IMG/VR virus record: IMGVR_UViG_3300037042_001569
Coordinates: 1-37,307 of that record
DNA: 37,307 nt
Source of the DNA: a virus
Direction: 5' to 3' (one strand)
How positions within the stretch are numbered: the stretch's first letter is position 1; the number at the start of each line of letters is the position of its first letter. Positions 11,012 to 20,517 of the stretch are shown piece after piece. The notes beneath the pieces were generated by a model. That model was not told where the DNA came from and did not search any database. It saw only the letters and a list, made by a program, of their open reading frames with translations. The translations under genes and the position numbers were made by a program.

Positions 11012-14000
11012 ATGGTATTTCGTGATGATTTTTTAAACACAGTTCAATCGTTAGAAAGTGATGGTGTTCAAGGTTTAACTTCCCGTAAAGGGGCCACAGG
11101 GCGAATGCAAACGATGCAAGCAACTCGCACTGACCCCGGCTTTGGAGTTATGCCAGCTAGAGATGATAGCCTTGAAGAAGGTGATCGTGTTGGTAGAGAT
11201 TATGCGTTAGCTTTATTAGATCATTATAAAGACCCTGCAATAGCACTAGCTGCTTATAACGCAGGGCCGGGTGCAGTTAATAAGCATGGGGGGATACCTC
11301 CTTACAAAGAAACTCAGAACTATGTTCGGAAAGGAATGGGCATGTTAGATGAGGCTCAAGCCCCTGTAAATCTAACACCAGAGCAAGATGCTGAATTTGA
11401 AAAGTATTATGCTGCACAACAAGAGGAACAAAAACCTTTAGAGTTAACTCCAGAACAAGAAGCTGAGTTTGAAAAATATTATGCTGAGCAACAAGGCGGT
11501 GCGCCTAAAGAGCAAGAAGGTCGTAGTGCGGGCACAGTACTTAAAGACATAGGTATATCTGCAGAGAAAGGTGGTATCAACGCAGTTCAATCACTAGTAG
11601 GCCTTGCTGACCTTGCTGCTGAACCTTTTGACAAAAGTCCTAGTAAGTACATTGCTGAAAATGTATATGATCTTTCTAAGAAACAGGCTGAGTTAAGCGA
11701 AGAATATTCACCACAACAAAAAGCTGCAAACAAAGCTTTGTCAGAAGCATCTGGAATAGCTGAAAACCTATTGGCAATGAGAGATTACCCAAGTGCTGTA
11801 GGCGCAAGTCTAATGGGTTCAGCCCCTTCAATGGTGGCTGGCGGCCTAATGGGTAAGATAGCTAAAGCGGCTGGCGTTGCTAGTGACTTTATAGCTGCAG
11901 GTGTTGGTGAAGCTACTATTGGCATGGGTGGTGCAGCGTCACAAGCTACAGAACAAGCTCCAGATAAAGAACTAACTACTAAAACAGCTTTAGCTTCATT
12001 AGGATCAGGTGCTGTCACGGGTCTTATCGGTGGGGCAATGGGTAAAGCCACTGTAGCACTAGGTGGTATGGACCCAACACAACTTATCATGGGTAATACT
12101 AGAAGGAAACTTGCAGCTGAGATGGGTGAAGAAGTTGCATCATCACCCGGTGTGTTCAGACAAGTTGTTACTTCAGCTCTCGGTGAAGGCGTGCTTGAAG
12201 AAGCACCGCAGTCTGCTCAAGAACAAATGTGGCAGAACTATTCATCAGGTAGACCTTTAACAGAGGGTGTAGAAGACGCAGCAATCAAAGGTGGGATGTT
12301 AGGTACTATCATGGGTGGTGGCGCGGGCACTATTTCTGCTAGAGGTGACCAACCTGCAGAACAACCTGCTGTAACTCCAAGTGCCCTAGCCCCTGCGCCT
12401 ACTCCTGCACCTACAGCAGAAGAGGGTAAACTTACTGAGGAGGACAAAGTATCTGCACTGTCAGGTATGGGTCTAGCTCCTGAAGAACAGGCGTATAATG
12501 AGTTAGTTAATACAGACATTAACAGCCTTGAAGGATTAGCTAGGGCCGAAGAGATTGTACATGGTCGTGGTGCTAAACTACCTGATAACTTTGATTATGA
12601 ACAGTTTGATAACCTAATAGCCTCACAACGAGATAAGCTTAGTGGTACAACTGCTGAGCCTACACCTGAAGCTACAGCAACTACACCTGAAAACAAATAC
12701 TCAGTTGAACAACAAAAGATATCTGACAGATATCCTGATGCTACGCCAACGCAAAAAGCTAGATTAGATATGCCTTCTACAAAAGCTGTAAAGGTTATAC
12801 CTGAGCTATTAGAGTCAGCTAGAAAAGTAGCTAGAGGTGAGGCAACTAATGCCGATCACCAAGCAGTAATAAATAAGTATAAACCTGTTACACCATACAA
12901 CTATGTACCTACGCCTGAAACAGATGAAAACATGGCATTAGGACTTAAAGAAGTTGACAAAATAGCTAAACTCAATCAACCAATAGCTGAAGGAGAAGTA
13001 GTAGACTCCCGTTTAGATATCCCAGCATATACTAGGGATGAGGAAAAAGGAGAAACCTCGGCATGGGTGCCTACTCTTCATACAAAAGACAGAGGGACAA
13101 TTCATAGAAGCACTGTAATTCTTAACAATTTTACTATGAAAATGCCAGAACAAGGTGCATTAAATATAGCTACTAGGAAAGAAACTATTAATGCTAAAGG
13201 GGAGAAAAGGGTACAGAATAAAGCTCCAATAGCTACTATAAGGGGGGAGTGGGAAAATCATACCCCAGAGCAAGCCTACGCTGAAGCTACAAAAGTTATG
13301 GCTGATTATAATAAAGGTATAGGGAATTGGCGACAAGCAGGTATGGACCCAGATAGACATAGCCATTTTTACGATAGAGAAACCCAACAACCCATTGTTG
13401 GTGGTGATCGGATGATTCAAATTGGTCCGTTAGTGCTTGTTAAAAATCCTATACGTGGTGCAAAAGCTAAAGAAGATTATCTATACTCTGCAGCGCCAAC
13501 AGAAGCTACTACAGGTCACACTACAGCAAGTTTGAGCAAAGCTTTGTCCCCTGAATTAAAACGCCTTGTGGCGTCAGGTAAGGCTGTTATTCATGATACG
13601 CAAGCTACACTGCCGGGTGAGAATCATCCAGCTAATGTAAAGGGTATGACTACAGCCGAAGGGGTTACGCACTACGTTGCTAACAAGCTTACCCCTAGCA
13701 CTATGGAAAGCGTTGCACTACATGAAGTAGGCGTACATGCTGGCATGGAAAAGATGTTAGGTAAAGAGCTTTGGGAAGATGTTAAGAACCAAGCCTTGAA
13801 CGGTCAAGGTAAAGAGTTTGACAGAGCCCGTGCTGCTGTACCTGCAAGTACACCTACTCATTTAAAAGCTGAAGAAACTTTAGCGTATCTTGTTGAGCAT
13901 TCTCCACAGCTTTCATTAGTGCGTAGGATTGTTGCAGCTATACGTAACTTTATGCGCTCTAAGATGGGTATGGGTATTAAACTATCCGAAGCTGACGCTA

Positions 14001-16849
14001 GACAAATGGCTACAGCATCATTGCGTAGAGAAGCTAAGACTGCAGAAAGAACCGCTCGTGAAGAAACGGCATATACTGAAAAAGCTAGATACGCATTAAC
14101 ACCAGAGTCACAAGCATCTTTGACAGAAGCTGAGACTAGACGGGCGGCATCTGAAGCTAAGAGCAATCCTGTAAGACCTAAGAAAAGCTTTGGCAAATCT
14201 ATATCTGATGGGATGACTACTTTTGAAACAGCTGCGTTCTCATATGATGCAGCTTATATTAAGACCTTAAAAGAGCAATTCAAGAAACTCGGTCTGTCTA
14301 ATAAGGCTACAACAGAATTGTTGCTACAAGCCTCACAATCTCAAACTGTACATGCGTCTTCTCTATCTGCGCAAGCTGCAATTCTAGGTAAGCTTGTTAA
14401 GAACCTTGAAACTCAGATGTGGGAAGCTACGTCAGGCGAACATAGTATTGCTAACATACAACCTTTGTTAGATGCTATCGCTAAACAACATGGATTAACA
14501 ACCAAACAAGTGCGTAACCAGTTTGGCGATATCATGGTAGCTAGTCGTATCAAAGAGATACGTGATCAAGTTGGTGAATTAGAATCTATTATTGAAGATA
14601 TTAAAAATGAATTTGGTGGTGCAACCAAAGAGGAAATAGTTAAGCTTGAACGAAGTCTAAAGTATCATGAAAGGAAACTAGTCAAAGCTGAAGAGCTTGC
14701 AGCTAGACCCCAACATATGGACGATGCTCAAGTTGCTACAGCACTTATACCCTTAAAGGATCATCCTGAGTATATGAAACCCCTGCAAGAATGGCAAGAT
14801 GTGCGAAAGTACATGGTTGAGTTCTTAAAGAGCACGGGACGGTACTCAAATGATCAAGCACGGGCATATCTTGATGCGATAGCGTATGTTCCATTCAATC
14901 GTATTATGGATATGAAAGACCCTGATGAAGGATTCTTAACGATGGCAGAAGGGCATGGTACAAAACTTACCAATCTTACTGCTGGTCAGAAAGAATACAA
15001 GATGAAAGGTTCTGCTACACGAGAAGTTGATGACATTGTTACCAATATGGAAAAGTGGGTATACGCCAGTTTTAATAAAGGTATTAATGCTGATAAAGGT
15101 CGTCAGCTTGTTGATCTAGCAAGTACATACTTTTCTAAAGGTACTGTAACTAAACTCCCATCAGGTGCACTTACAGAAGGTGCGGTGCCTATCTATAGGG
15201 ATGGCGTTAAAGAATATTGGCGGTTTGAAGACCCTTTAATGCCGTACGCATTCAATGGTGTTAACCCTGTTGCGTTACCTGCACTGCGATTTGGAGCAAA
15301 GTTTGCTAATAGATTACGTCAATCTATTGTATTGAATCCTTTGTTTACAATATCTCAGTTACCACAAGATACATTCTCAGCCATGTTTTCTTCAGGTTTG
15401 AAGAACCCTTTCATGTTACCTATAGAGACTCTTAAAGAGTTTGTAACAACTCTTACAGGTACATCTAAGACTCATCAATTATTAAAGAATGTAGGTGCTA
15501 CAGGTCAACGTGACCCTATGGATATGTATACTCAAAGTATTCATGACCTTGCTTACAATCAACACACTGATAAAAAAGGTGTTGGTGCAAGTATCATGCG
15601 AGTATTTAATTCTATTGCAGGTGCTGGTGATAATGCACTTCGTCAAGCAGTTTATAATCGTACAGTAAAGGAACTTAAAAATAATCCTAATGCTAAAGCA
15701 ATTGCTCAAGAAAGAGCTTTTGAGATTATTAACTTTCGTAGACGGGGTGCTAGTGCAACAATAGATATGATTCGTCAGATAACACCATTCTTAGGTGCGT
15801 ATCTTCAAGCACAGCGTGTAGCTTTCAATGTGTTATCTTTGCGAGGTATAGCCCCTACAGAGCGTAAAGCTGCTCTAGCAACACTTGCATCAACCACTGC
15901 TCAAGTTATAGCTATGGCGTTCATCTACAACGCCTTATTAGGTGACGATGATGAGTTTAAAAAGAAAGATGCAAGGGATAAAGATACCAGATTATATCCG
16001 TTAGGTTCTAAAACCAATATAACGCTACCTATTCGTCCTGATTTATTCTCATTACCTTTTGTAATGGCAAATCATGCTTATAATTATATAGCTGATAATG
16101 GGGTAGAACATCCTCATATGGCAATGAAGTCTATGCAAGAAGCATTGATAGCCTCTATGGTAGGTATGCCAATGGGCCCTACTATTATTAAACCTGTATT
16201 AGAAGTTAGTATCAATCATGATTTCTTCACTGGTAAAGGTATTATCCCTAGACGTTTAGAAGGACAAGAGAATCAAAACCTATACACAACTAAGACGTCT
16301 GAGATGGCTAAGATGTTAGGTGGTACAGGTTTGGTTGCACCCGTTCTTGTTGATCATTTCATTAAAGGAACAATGGGATACACCGGAAGTGCTGTACTTC
16401 AAGTAACAGATATGGCGCTCAGAGCTGGTCTGGATATCCCTTATGTTGCTAAAGATGTATTAGGTAAAGATGTTAGAGACATTCCGGGAGTACCCTCTCT
16501 TTATACCAATGAGAAAGCAGTTCCTTATATGGATAACTTCTATACTCTAAGTGCAAAAGTTAATGAGAAGTTTAAAACCTTAGCTGGGTTAAAAGCTCTT
16601 AAGAAAACTGAAGACGTAAAGGCGTATAAAGCTGAGAATAAAGTATTACTTAATACAGGGTTGCATAATCAGTTAAATAATATGTCTGAACGTATTAATA
16701 CACTAGAGAAGAAGAAAAGAGTTATTGCTGAAACACCTAATTCAAAGATGTCACCTGATGTTAAACGAGCAAAAATAGATACACTTGATTTAAAGATTGC
16801 TCATGTTATGAAAGGTGTTCCAAGATTAGAGAAGCGGGCGTACAAATAA
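11012..16849 (+). CDS. Giant polyvalent virion protein with N-terminal lytic transglycosylase domain
   Basis: The first about 105 residues of this 1945-aa protein match a soluble lytic transglycosylase: catalytic Glu15 in QSLES, GATGRMQTM, and AAYNAGPGAV with Tyr82-Asn83. It would cut peptidoglycan as DNA enters the host, like the internal virion protein of T7. Two copies of LTPEQxAEFEKYYAxQQ follow, then small-residue-rich helices (about 250-350). A region near 780-820 has RHSHFYDRETQQPIVGGDRM and IQIGPLVL, and HEVGVH sits at 904-909 in a peptidase-like segment. Charged coiled coils follow. The last about 450 residues (ITPFLGAYLQAQRVAFNVLS and beyond) resemble large polyvalent protein-associated regions. 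AAGGA precedes the ATG. It is the last gene of the late block. Confidence 0.85.
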   Translation: MVFRDDFLNTVQSLESDGVQGLTSRKGATGRMQTMQATRTDPGFGVMPARDDSLEEGDRVGRDYALALLDHYKDPAIALAAYNAGPGAVNKHGGIPPYKETQNYVRKGMGMLDEAQAPVNLTPEQDAEFEKYYAAQQEEQKPLELTPEQEAEFEKYYAEQQGGAPKEQEGRSAGTVLKDIGISAEKGGINAVQSLVGLADLAAEPFDKSPSKYIAENVYDLSKKQAELSEEYSPQQKAANKALSEASGIAENLLAMRDYPSAVGASLMGSAPSMVAGGLMGKIAKAAGVASDFIAAGVGEATIGMGGAASQATEQAPDKELTTKTALASLGSGAVTGLIGGAMGKATVALGGMDPTQLIMGNTRRKLAAEMGEEVASSPGVFRQVVTSALGEGVLEEAPQSAQEQMWQNYSSGRPLTEGVEDAAIKGGMLGTIMGGGAGTISARGDQPAEQPAVTPSALAPAPTPAPTAEEGKLTEEDKVSALSGMGLAPEEQAYNELVNTDINSLEGLARAEEIVHGRGAKLPDNFDYEQFDNLIASQRDKLSGTTAEPTPEATATTPENKYSVEQQKISDRYPDATPTQKARLDMPSTKAVKVIPELLESARKVARGEATNADHQAVINKYKPVTPYNYVPTPETDENMALGLKEVDKIAKLNQPIAEGEVVDSRLDIPAYTRDEEKGETSAWVPTLHTKDRGTIHRSTVILNNFTMKMPEQGALNIATRKETINAKGEKRVQNKAPIATIRGEWENHTPEQAYAEATKVMADYNKGIGNWRQAGMDPDRHSHFYDRETQQPIVGGDRMIQIGPLVLVKNPIRGAKAKEDYLYSAAPTEATTGHTTASLSKALSPELKRLVASGKAVIHDTQATLPGENHPANVKGMTTAEGVTHYVANKLTPSTMESVALHEVGVHAGMEKMLGKELWEDVKNQALNGQGKEFDRARAAVPASTPTHLKAEETLAYLVEHSPQLSLVRRIVAAIRNFMRSKMGMGIKLSEADARQMATASLRREAKTAERTAREETAYTEKARYALTPESQASLTEAETRRAASEAKSNPVRPKKSFGKSISDGMTTFETAAFSYDAAYIKTLKEQFKKLGLSNKATTELLLQASQSQTVHASSLSAQAAILGKLVKNLETQMWEATSGEHSIANIQPLLDAIAKQHGLTTKQVRNQFGDIMVASRIKEIRDQVGELESIIEDIKNEFGGATKEEIVKLERSLKYHERKLVKAEELAARPQHMDDAQVATALIPLKDHPEYMKPLQEWQDVRKYMVEFLKSTGRYSNDQARAYLDAIAYVPFNRIMDMKDPDEGFLTMAEGHGTKLTNLTAGQKEYKMKGSATREVDDIVTNMEKWVYASFNKGINADKGRQLVDLASTYFSKGTVTKLPSGALTEGAVPIYRDGVKEYWRFEDPLMPYAFNGVNPVALPALRFGAKFANRLRQSIVLNPLFTISQLPQDTFSAMFSSGLKNPFMLPIETLKEFVTTLTGTSKTHQLLKNVGATGQRDPMDMYTQSIHDLAYNQHTDKKGVGASIMRVFNSIAGAGDNALRQAVYNRTVKELKNNPNAKAIAQERAFEIINFRRRGASATIDMIRQITPFLGAYLQAQRVAFNVLSLRGIAPTERKAALATLASTTAQVIAMAFIYNALLGDDDEFKKKDARDKDTRLYPLGSKTNITLPIRPDLFSLPFVMANHAYNYIADNGVEHPHMAMKSMQEALIASMVGMPMGPTIIKPVLEVSINHDFFTGKGIIPRRLEGQENQNLYTTKTSEMAKMLGGTGLVAPVLVDHFIKGTMGYTGSAVLQVTDMALRAGLDIPYVAKDVLGKDVRDIPGVPSLYTNEKAVPYMDNFYTLSAKVNEKFKTLAGLKALKKTEDVKAYKAENKVLLNTGLHNQLNNMSERINTLEKKKRVIAETPNSKMSPDVKRAKIDTLDLKIAHVMKGVPRLEKRAYK

Positions 16850-16896: not shown

Positions 16897-17148
16897 TTAA
16901 CCTACGTAGTTGTAGAGCCAGAAGATATTAGTAACAAAGAAACCAACACCAAAGAAATAAGCAAACTTTGATAAAGTCATTATTCTTGCAGACGCTGTCT
17001 CCAATGCAAACACTTCAAAATCAAATTCATCTTCTTCACATTCATTACCGTCCTCATCCAAAATTATAAACCCATCAGCAATATGCAATAACCCGTTAAT
17101 AATTTCATTATTAGGCATACCAACTACGTCACTTATCTTTCTACCCAT
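16897..17148 (-). CDS. Small membrane protein, one C-terminal helix (83 aa)
   Basis: The N-terminal half is acidic (EDGNECEEDEFDFEVF) and the last about 25 residues form a hydrophobic segment (FAYFFGVGFFVTNIFWLYNY), so the protein is probably tail-anchored with its acidic part in the cytoplasm. ATG at 17148 is preferred over a TTG at 17160 because GGAG lies six bases before it. It overlaps the ThyX gene end by eight bases. A holin or host-membrane modulator is possible, but the family is not recognised. It is the last gene of the early block. Confidence 0.6.
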   Translation of the reverse strand: MGRKISDVVGMPNNEIINGLLHIADGFIILDEDGNECEEDEFDFEVFALETASARIMTLSKFAYFFGVGFFVTNIFWLYNYVG

Positions 17149-17698
17149 TGTATTCTCCAAAGATGATTGGTGCTATCTGCTGTAGCTCTTTCTCTATTGC
17201 CAAGGCTACTTCACGTACTTCAATTTGAGCTGAGATGCTTGTTCTAAGCTTGATAAAGTCTTTCCAAGCCTGATAGTTGCCTGATACAAAAAGCTCTGTC
17301 TCTTGCGCCTGTGGGAGGATATACCGAGCATCTTGTTTGGAAACACCTGCTTCACGTAATTGTGTATATACTTCTTTAGATAAAGTTAGAAAGTTACTTA
17401 CCGTTTGTTCATGAGGTGCTAATGATTCTGGTATTAACATTAAGGCGTCAGTTTCATCACAGTAACGTGAGCTACGTACTAAATAATCTAAATGCTTACT
17501 ACGAGTTAACTGAGCGAGGCATACTCTGCTAACACCTTCGATACGGAATACAGCGTTACCAAAACGAAGAACAGACAAATGCCCAACCCCAATAATATGA
17601 GACAACCTTTTTTCATTGTTACCTTCTCTACCGTAGCAAATCCCGGCATATTTTCCTAAATTATTAGGGTTCGTATATTCTTCTAATGTAATTTTCAT
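17141..17698 (-). CDS. thyX: ThyX-like flavin-dependent thymidylate synthase, divergent signature
   Basis: ThyX methylates dUMP to dTMP using methylene-tetrahydrofolate, FAD and NADPH. The family is recognised by GHLSVLRFGNAVFRIEGVSR (39-58), AQLTR, the SSRY at 76-79, then a middle RYILPQAQET, and FIKLRTSISAQIEVREVA ending with Arg162. At the position of the RHR(x)7S signature the protein has R66-S67-K68-(x7)-S76. The family Glu-His after HLSVL is Arg45-Phe46, and the Arg of the usual N-x-R is Gln143. At 185 residues it is shorter than typical (about 210-250). It may be altered in cofactor binding, or inactive. It follows a small gene and the HNH gene in one operon. Confidence 0.8.
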   Translation of the reverse strand: MKITLEEYTNPNNLGKYAGICYGREGNNEKRLSHIIGVGHLSVLRFGNAVFRIEGVSRVCLAQLTRSKHLDYLVRSSRYCDETDALMLIPESLAPHEQTVSNFLTLSKEVYTQLREAGVSKQDARYILPQAQETELFVSGNYQAWKDFIKLRTSISAQIEVREVALAIEKELQQIAPIIFGEYNG

Positions 17699-17704
17699 AA
17701 TTGG

Positions 17705-17851
17705 TTATCTCTGATGTTGAATTATGTTATCGCCCCACAGCTCTGACTCTTTATAACACTCAGTGCATATCTTTAAATTAAGAGAGTAATATTGTCGGAA
17801 CCTTGTACATTTGTGAGGGGGTGCAAACCACCCTCTAATTCTTTTAATCAT
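17705..17851 (-). CDS. Small basic protein with CxxC (48 aa)
   Basis: A 48-residue frame overlaps the HNH gene stop as ATGA and ends six bases before thyX. It is basic and aromatic and contains Cys15 and a CTEC motif (Cys29, Cys32), suggesting a small zinc-binding module with too few visible ligands to be sure. Its position implies translation coupled to the HNH gene. No family is recognised. Confidence 0.55.
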   Translation of the reverse strand: MIKRIRGWFAPPHKCTRFRQYYSLNLKICTECYKESELWGDNIIQHQR

Positions 17852-18345
17852 GTGACTTTCTCTTCCCAAAACGTGTGTAGGTCTCTTTTGGCTTTTAAAT
17901 AGGCTTCAGATGCTTGTTCGGCGGTGTTAAAGTGACCTAGGTATTTATCTCTTCCGTTGAGTCTTATTTGCGCTTGCCATTTTTTACAGTCTTTACGCCA
18001 ACTAACACCTAAGTATCCAGATGTACCATTTGATTTTGGACTTGATCTGTTGTGTTGGTTCTCTTGATGTGTAGCCATTCTCAAATTTACAATACGGTTA
18101 TCATCTCGTATCTCATTAATATGGTCTAAAAATTCTTCTGGTAGTTCACCATATATGTATAACCAAACTAACCTATGGGCCATATAATCTTTATAGTCAA
18201 TTTTAATACGGATATATCCGTCATGTCGCCAACCAGCAGTTGTGCCAACCGCACTTGACCCCCTTTGTGTTAGATTGGTGAAGATGCCTGTATCGGGGTC
18301 GTATGATAGTACTTCTTTTAAACGGTCTTGTGTAAGTTCTGTCAT
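17848..18345 (-). CDS. HNH endonuclease with AP2-like domain
   Basis: This 165-aa protein has an HNH_3-type core at about 55-100 (MAHRLVWLYIYGELPEEFLD, then D74-H75-INEIRDDNRIVNLR, then ATHQENQHNR with H93) and an AP2-like region at about 106-155 (SGYLGVSWRKDCKKWQAQI, then LGHFNTAEQASEAYLKAK). It should cut a specific DNA site and may have carried itself into the early operon. Its order of domains is the same as that of the HNH protein in the structural block, but the two sequences differ strongly, so they are not recent copies. AAAGGA lies before the ATG. The stop overlaps the next small gene. Confidence 0.92.
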   Translation of the reverse strand: MTELTQDRLKEVLSYDPDTGIFTNLTQRGSSAVGTTAGWRHDGYIRIKIDYKDYMAHRLVWLYIYGELPEEFLDHINEIRDDNRIVNLRMATHQENQHNRSSPKSNGTSGYLGVSWRKDCKKWQAQIRLNGRDKYLGHFNTAEQASEAYLKAKRDLHTFWEEKVT

Positions 18346-18484: not shown

Positions 18485-18700
18485 TTAGTTAAGATTCTCA
18501 TTCCTACGTTTTATATGTAAGTCCACACTCTTGTCATACCCTGCAATTTGTTCCGCAGTAGTGGCGAAGGTGGAACGCACGAATTTATACCGATAGGAGT
18601 ATAATTTTAATTCTTCTATCTCAGCTTTCAATTCCAAAATATCCCTCTCTAGGGATTCTATAGTCCATTCTGCAACTTCTAATAAGTTTTCAGCGTCCAT
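18485..18700 (-). CDS. Small coiled-coil protein (71 aa)
   Basis: Residues 5-40 form an acidic heptad-like helix (VAEWTIESLERDILELKAEI), followed by a basic, aromatic tail. The ATG at 18700 overlaps the DUF3310 stop as TGATG with GGAGG just before it; a GTG one codon earlier is less likely. No family is recognised. Confidence 0.6.
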   Translation of the reverse strand: MDAENLLEVAEWTIESLERDILELKAEIEELKLYSYRYKFVRSTFATTAEQIAGYDKSVDLHIKRRNENLN

Positions 18701-19077
18701 CACTCCTCCGAGGCTTCTAAGTTTTTAATTCTTCGATTTAAGTAGTATTGTGCTTTCTTTAAGTCTTCCAGCTTACTTATCTTGTATCCTGCACGAGACA
18801 CATACTTAATAACATTAGCAAGGCAGAAGTCTTTATCTAACCCTTTTGCTTCTATGTAGTCTATCGTCTCAAACCCCCCATGCGTATAATGACTAGGACT
18901 GTTAACAGGGTCGTGCTTAATAGGCCCACTACTCCCTGCCATTATGGTGTTTTCTACCTGCTTATACTTCCATAAAGGTTTCACAGTTGTTTCTTGATTT
19001 ATCATATAGTCCTCGTATTGTTTAGGGTAGCACCAAAGGTTTATAGGGGGGAATATGAAGTCAGCCCATTTCACCAT
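18700..19077 (-). CDS. DUF3310 family protein
   Basis: The core matches DUF3310, a short protein common in phages and of unknown function: DPVNSPSHYTHGGFETIDYI, then LANVIKYVSRAGYK, then EDLKKAQYYLNRRI, at residues about 56-117. Two starts are possible. ATG at 19077 overlaps the preceding stop and gives 125 aa with a Trp-rich head (FIFPPINLWCYP). ATG at 19005 has GAGGA at ideal spacing and gives 101 aa. Both contain the whole domain. I list the longer because the head contains a repeated pattern seen in other phage short proteins, but the shorter may be the main product. Confidence 0.8.
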   Translation of the reverse strand: MVKWADFIFPPINLWCYPKQYEDYMINQETTVKPLWKYKQVENTIMAGSSGPIKHDPVNSPSHYTHGGFETIDYIEAKGLDKDFCLANVIKYVSRAGYKISKLEDLKKAQYYLNRRIKNLEASEE

Positions 19078-19268
19078 CCGTTCCTTTCTGCGTTTTCTGC
19101 ACATTCTTTTGAACACCATCTGCGTCCATCCGATACAGGGGTGTCACATTCCCAACAAACACCTGACTCATTAGGAAATATTTCTAATTTAGCACCTTTT
19201 GCAAGTGCGATCTGCTTATCTAGGATCAACTGAGCTTGTTCGTTAGCAGTATCAATTATGTCACCCAT
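19071..19268 (-). CDS. TraR/DksA-type zinc-finger protein (65 aa)
   Basis: The N-terminal helix (DTANEQAQLILDKQIALA) and the CWEC...WCSKEC zinc site (four Cys) match the short phage TraR/DksA-like group, which binds RNA polymerase's secondary channel in its best-known members. The usual DxxDxA is only loosely present, so an effect on transcription is inference. ATG at 19268 is preferred over a GTG nine bases earlier because AAGGCGAG lies at a suitable distance. It overlaps the DUF3310 start by seven bases. Confidence 0.65.
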   Translation of the reverse strand: MGDIIDTANEQAQLILDKQIALAKGAKLEIFPNESGVCWECDTPVSDGRRWCSKECAENAERNGW

Positions 19269-19814: not shown

Positions 19815-20219
19815 CTAGACTCCAGTTGAACCAATACCGTTATCAGACCTGTCAGTATAATCTAAATCATCTGATAATTCCCACTCTACTGTTGGTACAG
19901 GCACGATCATAAGTTGAGCAATACGATCACCAGTGTTTATATAAAAGTTCTCTTCAGTGTGGTTAAATAGATGCACCTTAACCTCACCTCTGTAATTAGC
20001 ATCAATAACACCTGCACCGACTTCAATACCATTCTTTACAGACAACCCACTTCTTGACTTTATGATCCCACAATAACCTTCGGGTATTGCTAGGCGCAGT
20101 CCTGTGCTTATCAGTTCTCTGTCGAGTGCTCGCACAACTGTACCTTTATCAGCCTCAATATCAAAAGCTGCGTCAGATGGATATGCTTTATTTAATTCTT
20201 TTGTTGTTTTAATTATCAT
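19815..20219 (-). CDS. dut: dUTP pyrophosphatase (dUTPase)
   Basis: The 134-aa protein hydrolyses dUTP to dUMP and pyrophosphate, keeping uracil out of DNA and feeding thymidylate synthesis. The five trimeric dUTPase motifs are visible: DAAFDIEA (16-23), KSRSGLS (54-60), GAGVIDANYRGEV (68-80, with catalytic Asp73 and Tyr76), GDRIAQLMI (97-105) and RSDNGIGSTG (124-133), in which the usual GGFGSTG Phe is Ile. Length is normal for the family. ATG at 20219 is chosen because GGAGA lies seven bases upstream and it does not overlap the previous gene; an earlier frame extension is not needed. It complements the ThyX-like gene 2 kb downstream. Confidence 0.96.
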   Translation of the reverse strand: MIIKTTKELNKAYPSDAAFDIEADKGTVVRALDRELISTGLRLAIPEGYCGIIKSRSGLSVKNGIEVGAGVIDANYRGEVKVHLFNHTEENFYINTGDRIAQLMIVPVPTVEWELSDDLDYTDRSDNGIGSTGV

Positions 20220-20220
20220 T

Positions 20221-20517
20221 TTAATATCTCCAAGACCCGTTTTCATTTTTAATAGGTGCTGTACCAATAGAAGTTGTAACTGAAGTACCTCGTGCAAAAA
20301 CTTCGTGTGCAAGGACTTCCTTAGCTTCTACTTCTTTACCATACTCATTCATAAAACATTTAAACGTATCAGCAAAGTCTGAATCTATAGTGCTAACATA
20401 TTTATATATGCCGTGTGCATGTAACTCCCATTCATTGTCATACCATTCTTCTGATTCAGTAGGTAAGGATTTTATATAGGATTTTAAATCTTCTAAATCT
20501 ATTGTTATCTTACTCAT
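20221..20517 (-). CDS. Acidic hypothetical protein (98 aa)
   Basis: It is acidic and rich in Tyr, Trp and Glu, with a conserved-looking DLKSYIKSLPTESEEWYDNE segment. ATG at 20517 gives AGGAG at ideal spacing and overlaps the upstream stop as TAATG; an upstream ATG at 20523 is too close to that site. No domain is recognised. Confidence 0.6.
   Translation of the reverse strand: MSKITIDLEDLKSYIKSLPTESEEWYDNEWELHAHGIYKYVSTIDSDFADTFKCFMNEYGKEVEAKEVLAHEVFARGTSVTTSIGTAPIKNENGSWRY

Follow-up and report, generated by a model that had tools for sequence, protein, structure and literature searches.

ThyX, the flavin-dependent thymidylate synthase, is a studied antibacterial target, and its RHR motif is treated as defining and cofactor-binding. 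The Mycobacterium tuberculosis enzyme (Mtb; PDB 3gwc/3hzg) binds dUMP through Arg87, Arg95, Ser105, Arg107 and Arg199 (PMC6514825), with Arg172 as a further ligand (PMC9571937). According to a review of crystal structures, the RHR residues form hydrogen bonds to the AMP phosphate of FAD and to its ribityl and phosphate parts, Ser71 and Arg190 of the neighbouring subunit bond to the same parts, and Arg95 additionally contacts the isoalloxazine ring (PMC6514825). In the Thermotoga maritima enzyme (Tma) H53 stacks on flavin or folate (PMC11940539); for Mtb E74, the Glu that follows the H-x-S-x-x stretch, our literature search found no source stating a role. Departures from the typical enzyme have been described within the fold. 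PolB, the UMP methylase of polyoxin biosynthesis (PDB 4p5a/4p5b), is a ThyX-fold enzyme with a shifted function; its specificity was changed via loops around the substrate, and FAD is still bound (PMC5003785). Similarly, ThyX of Corynebacterium glutamicum NCHU 87078 (PDB 3fnn/3ge9) is structurally atypical according to its depositors, although its sequence, unlike ours, has RHR and Glu-His. Neither a phage ThyX that lacks RHR nor a ThyX that uses FMN was seen among the papers found.

The window, a virus record of 37,307 bases, encodes a family B DNA polymerase, a Gp2.5-like single-strand binding protein, an exonuclease, a helicase and a primase, as well as a 185-residue protein that an earlier note, made from the letters alone, had read as ThyX-like along its whole length but with a broken signature motif. 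The open reading frame exists at the coordinates noted, on the minus strand (Table 1), and the full-length likeness is upheld by family matches, by alignment with Mtb ThyX and by a fold match. The protein scores 139.1 bits against Pfam Thy1 (PF02511; curated cut-off 24.8, E 2e-40) and 110.8 bits against NCBIfam thyX (TIGR02170; curated cut-off 87.9), and judged by these scores, both above the curated cut-offs, it is a genuine member of the ThyX family. An AlphaFold2 model based on 53 aligned viral sequences reached a mean pLDDT of 92 and a pTM of 0.86. The closest solved structure to this model is that of Mtb ThyX (Foldseek E 3.5e-17), with which (3gwc) it superposes over 185 of 185 residues (Z 19.1, rmsd 2.4 A); the ThyX fold is therefore predicted for the protein. 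Around thyX we found no repeats of note and no excess of promoter-like sites over shuffled sequences. On the opposite strand lies an open reading frame of 1945 residues that probably encodes a large virion protein and in which transglycosylase SLT and LPD38 domains are recognised.

Table 1. Positions in the window of the thyX-like gene, of its retained and replaced residues, and of neighbouring genes.
Feature	Position	Strand	Basis or remark
thyX-like gene (RSK-type ThyX), 185 aa	17141..17698	minus	ATG at 17698, stop at 17141; family matches, AlphaFold2 model, fold match
R45-F46, replaces Glu-His (Mtb E74-H75, Tma E58-H59)	17561..17566	minus	alignment; invariant in 42/42
R58, retained dUMP phosphate ligand (Mtb R87)	17525..17527	minus	alignment; role PMC6514825, PMC9571937
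R66-S67-K68, replaces RHR motif (Mtb R95-H96-R97)	17495..17503	minus	alignment; 42-member comparison
S76-S77-R78-Y79, retained dUMP-binding loop (Mtb S105, R107, Y108)	17462..17473	minus	alignment; roles PMC6514825
R125, retained dUMP phosphate ligand (Mtb R172)	17324..17326	minus	alignment; role PMC9571937
N141-Y142-Q143, replaces NxR (Mtb N188-R190)	17270..17278	minus	alignment; 42-member comparison
R152, retained dUMP pyrimidine ligand (Mtb R199, Tma R174)	17243..17245	minus	alignment; role PMC9571937
87-aa ORF, overlaps thyX 3' end by 20 bases	16897..17160	minus	directly after thyX in several relatives
HNH endonuclease gene	17848..18345	minus	directly upstream of thyX
DUF3310 protein, related to phage nucleotide kinases	18700..19119	minus	commonest shared neighbour of RSK thyX
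dUTPase	19815..20312	minus	same strand as thyX, ~2.1 kb upstream; in 3 of 19 records
1945-aa ORF	11012..16849	plus	transglycosylase SLT and LPD38 domains

Alignment with Mtb ThyX confirms the three substitutions that had been noticed by eye, namely RHR to RSK, Glu-His to Arg-Phe, and the Arg of NxR to Gln, and no canonical RHR occurs elsewhere in the 185 residues. In Mtb numbering the replacements are E74R, H75F, H96S, R97K and R190Q, to which H194D (D147 of the phage protein) is to be added. Every dUMP-binding residue is present (Mtb R87, R95, S105, R107, Y108, R172 and R199 being R58, R66, S76, R78, Y79, R125 and R152), including the lid tyrosine Y79, and so are His40 (Tma H53) and Ser42 (Mtb Ser71). 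Read against the published structures, the altered part is the diphosphate/AMP end of FAD plus the neighbouring E74, and that part only. The suggestion of an altered site is likely to be right for this end of the cofactor; nothing indicates a change in the binding of dUMP.

Three scans of IMG/VR produced 42 full-length members of what we call the RSK type, including the window protein, of which 38 are distinct and the most divergent is 54% identical to it. The relatives share the changed residues nearly without exception. R45, F46, S67 and D147 are invariant, so that the position of Mtb E74 is Arg throughout; Q143, at the position of the FAD phosphate ligand R190, is Gln in 40 members and His in two; and in place of the RHR(X)7S signature the group has RSK(X)7S, with Lys at position 68 in 35 members and Val, giving RSV, in seven. 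The retained residues H40, S42, R58, R66, S76, R78, Y79, R125 and R152 are invariant or nearly so. Invariant replacements are written with several synonymous codons, five at R45 and both Ser codon sets at S67, which indicates that it is the amino acid itself that is kept, and pairwise dN/dS lies mostly between 0.07 and 0.26, with a maximum of 0.35. The absence of the canonical motif might be taken for that of a decaying gene whose motif residues are drifting, yet the replacements are fixed as far out as the most divergent relative at 54% identity, dN/dS values are low and all 42 full-length relatives have uninterrupted reading frames; this explanation is ruled out, its probability being negligible, and by these patterns the replaced residues are not a product of decay. 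Position 68 covaries with position 71: K68 is always accompanied by Asp or Glu and V68 always by Ser, a pairing which suggests that residue 68 is part of a local pair and not a ligand of the phosphate.

The RSK type appears confined to phages. A search of bacterial and archaeal genomes, 84,980 species in all, for its conserved peptides turned up no member, no relative above 37% identity was found among isolated phages, and no annotated isolate carrying the type was found. The changes belong to a strongly supported, phage-only clade, and the earlier note's alternative of a new subgroup is supported.

For comparison we assembled non-redundant samples of canonical phage ThyX and of a second aberrant form, the K type, in which RHR is KHQ or KHK; both were fetched by patterns that included KH[QK] or RHR among others, which biases position 97 and leaves positions 74 and 190 unbiased, and with that proviso the canonical sample keeps E74 and R97 in 77/77 sequences each and R190 in 74/77, the K type keeps the three residues in 0/81, and the RSK sequences keep them in none. 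Otherwise canonical phage sequences do contain H75F (4/77), His96 changed to Ser, Thr or Tyr (3/77) and a lost R190 (3/77); since there are such precedents for these changes and none at E74 and R97, what distinguishes the RSK type is E74R and R97K/V, followed by R190Q, and H75F and H96S would carry less meaning, occurring sporadically in canonical sequences. The K type is very common in IMG/VR, where at least 598 stretches proved to be related to a K-type query (examples are L066-L145), and it is found in the phiEco32-like phage FS2B, Salmonella phage 7-11, Erwinia phage Faunus, roseophages CRP-13 and CRP-403 and phage KZY1; isolates such as L052, L053, L058, L061, L064 and L065 are annotated plainly as thymidylate synthase. 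Like the RSK type it is without E74, R97 and the NxR arginine, and some members likewise have Arg at 74; unlike the RSK type it has Lys for the first Arg of RHR, keeps the central His and mostly has SxY, SxD or TxM in place of NxR. A further variant, seen in L231 and L237, is a long ThyX-like reading frame in which an extra N-terminal region precedes canonical motifs.

A first tree, without bacterial references, did not reject a single clade of RSK and K types (AU p 0.79). When ThyX of T. maritima and of T. thermophilus were added as references, the K type joined these two bacterial sequences (support 100), and the RSK type joined the Mtb/actinophage branch (support 87); the single clade was rejected (AU p 0.0044), and the rejection held when a different alignment was used and the motif columns were masked (p 0.030). 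The actinobacterial-type and actinophage enzymes (among them those of Streptomyces phage TG1 and Mycobacterium phage Badger), which form the nearest branch to the RSK type, share with it the fold, the dUMP ligands, the lid tyrosine and the GHxS and SR motifs, but they keep E74, R97 and NxR, are only some 30-36% identical to it, and measure 234-258 residues against 185. In the tree, Arg at position 74 appears in the RSK type and again inside the K type. The losses of E74, R97 and R190 in the two types seem to have separate origins, with the long stems a reason for caution, and it seems that phages have lost the Glu/RHR/NxR set on at least two occasions and that such loss is common among them.

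The reading we favour, and which we regard as somewhat probable, is that the RSK type is a working flavin-dependent phage thymidylate synthase with the ThyX fold, the usual binding of dUMP and of the flavin ring, and a rebuilt flavin clamp. The nucleotide and ring would be bound as in other ThyX and methyl transfer would proceed as usual, the flavin tail being anchored by an alternative fixed set made up of R45, S67, K68 or V68, and Q143. In the AlphaFold2 model Arg45 falls in a predicted helix, three positions on from the conserved Ser42, the counterpart of the phosphate ligand Mtb Ser71; one helical turn away from that serine, it may take over part of the phosphate contact. The idea of a straightforward substitution of lysine for arginine is weakened by Val68 in seven of the 42 members, in which the R97 position is uncharged. 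Throughout the sets compared E74 and R97 are kept or lost together, a pattern which suggests that the two form a functional pair spanning the interface between subunits. The product would be dTMP.

Within this favoured reading, it is quite possible, at a little under even chances, that FAD is still the cofactor, and improbable that a shorter flavin such as FMN has taken its place. A definite form of the latter, in which the same reaction proceeds with FMN, the flavin without the AMP half, and the fixed Arg45 binds its terminal phosphate, would explain why only residues in or close to the diphosphate/AMP end were lost (PMC6514825), those contacting isoalloxazine and dUMP having been retained, and why the same loss arose separately in the K type, some of whose members also have Arg at position 74. 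However, all 42 members retain N141 (Mtb N188), a neighbour of the FAD-binding stretch, and the Thermus enzyme, in which the NxR arginine is absent, keeps RHR and Glu, so that a single loss does not by itself call for another cofactor; we consider this form unlikely.

Two further explanations concern function itself. As a pseudoenzyme, the protein would bind dUMP and no flavin, and would act through mixed tetramers or competition with host ThyX, or as a sensor of dUMP. Replacement of the FAD-clamp residues speaks for this, and mixed tetramers would be of consequence because three subunits contribute to each ThyX active site (PMC9931769); yet Tyr79, His40, R66 and S76, which a binder of dUMP only does not obviously need, are conserved no less strictly than the dUMP ligands, and a host ThyX to pair with is hypothetical, which leaves the idea rather improbable. 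Alternatively, the chemistry or substrate may have changed, another pyrimidine nucleotide being used or a group other than methyl added for DNA base modification, given that a ThyX relative such as PolB can shift its substrate to UMP (PMC5003785) and that thymidylate synthases participate in modified-nucleotide synthesis in phages (PMC9931769). Against this, the ligands of the dUMP pyrimidine and phosphate are kept, the changes sit at the cofactor, and no base-modification genes were recognised among the scanned reading frames of the window; we think it very unlikely.

The genomic setting is in keeping with a functional synthase. Among 19 records carrying an RSK gene, ThyX is present in one copy in 19/19 and ThyA or any second thymidylate synthase was detected in 0/19, although most of these records are fragments and this absence is no proof. 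Inactivity, which the earlier note had put forward, is not favoured in view of the purifying selection, the intact dUMP pocket and this standing of ThyX as the sole thymidylate synthase detected in all 19. A DUF3310 gene occurs in 14 of the 19, often just upstream of thyX on the same strand, which is weak evidence given that DUF3310 is widespread in phages generally. The kinase gp1.7 of T7 adds a phosphate to dTMP and dGMP; with such an activity the DUF3310 protein would fit a dTMP pathway, and might be handed the product of the RSK enzyme. The dUTPase, which had been proposed as a supply of dUMP, does lie on the same strand in the window, but the connection is weak generally: present in 3/19 records, it is rejected as a functional partner for the subgroup.

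This dUTPase is 100% identical over 134 residues to that of L001, most neighbouring genes being less alike, and reflects either recent exchange or strong constraint. The 87-residue reading frame that follows thyX, acidic and with a hydrophobic C-terminal stretch, has no match in PHROG and is 98% identical in L001 and L002, whose ThyX proteins are 84% and 79% identical. HNH genes similar to the one beside thyX in the window flank thyX in L012/L043 and L040, a pattern suggestive of homing in the vicinity of this locus. Overall, the genes flanking thyX differ widely among relatives, and from this variability the RSK gene, alone or with the kinase gene, is probably mobile among phages.

The textbook signature of ThyX is not universal. 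For specialists in the enzyme, the surprise is the repeated and common loss of the Glu/RHR/NxR set in phages, and the label 'FAD-dependent thymidylate synthase' on many phage proteins assumes the cofactor, a warning for databases. It is conceivable, albeit doubtful, that a ThyX blind to the AMP half of FAD, using FMN or a transiently bound reduced flavin, has arisen in phages on two or more occasions; were that true, the RHR signature would be dispensable. The RSK and K lineages, one of them very common, have retained the pocket for the substrate and exchanged the FAD clamp; they amount to a natural mutagenesis experiment on the parts of the flavin site that ThyX needs.
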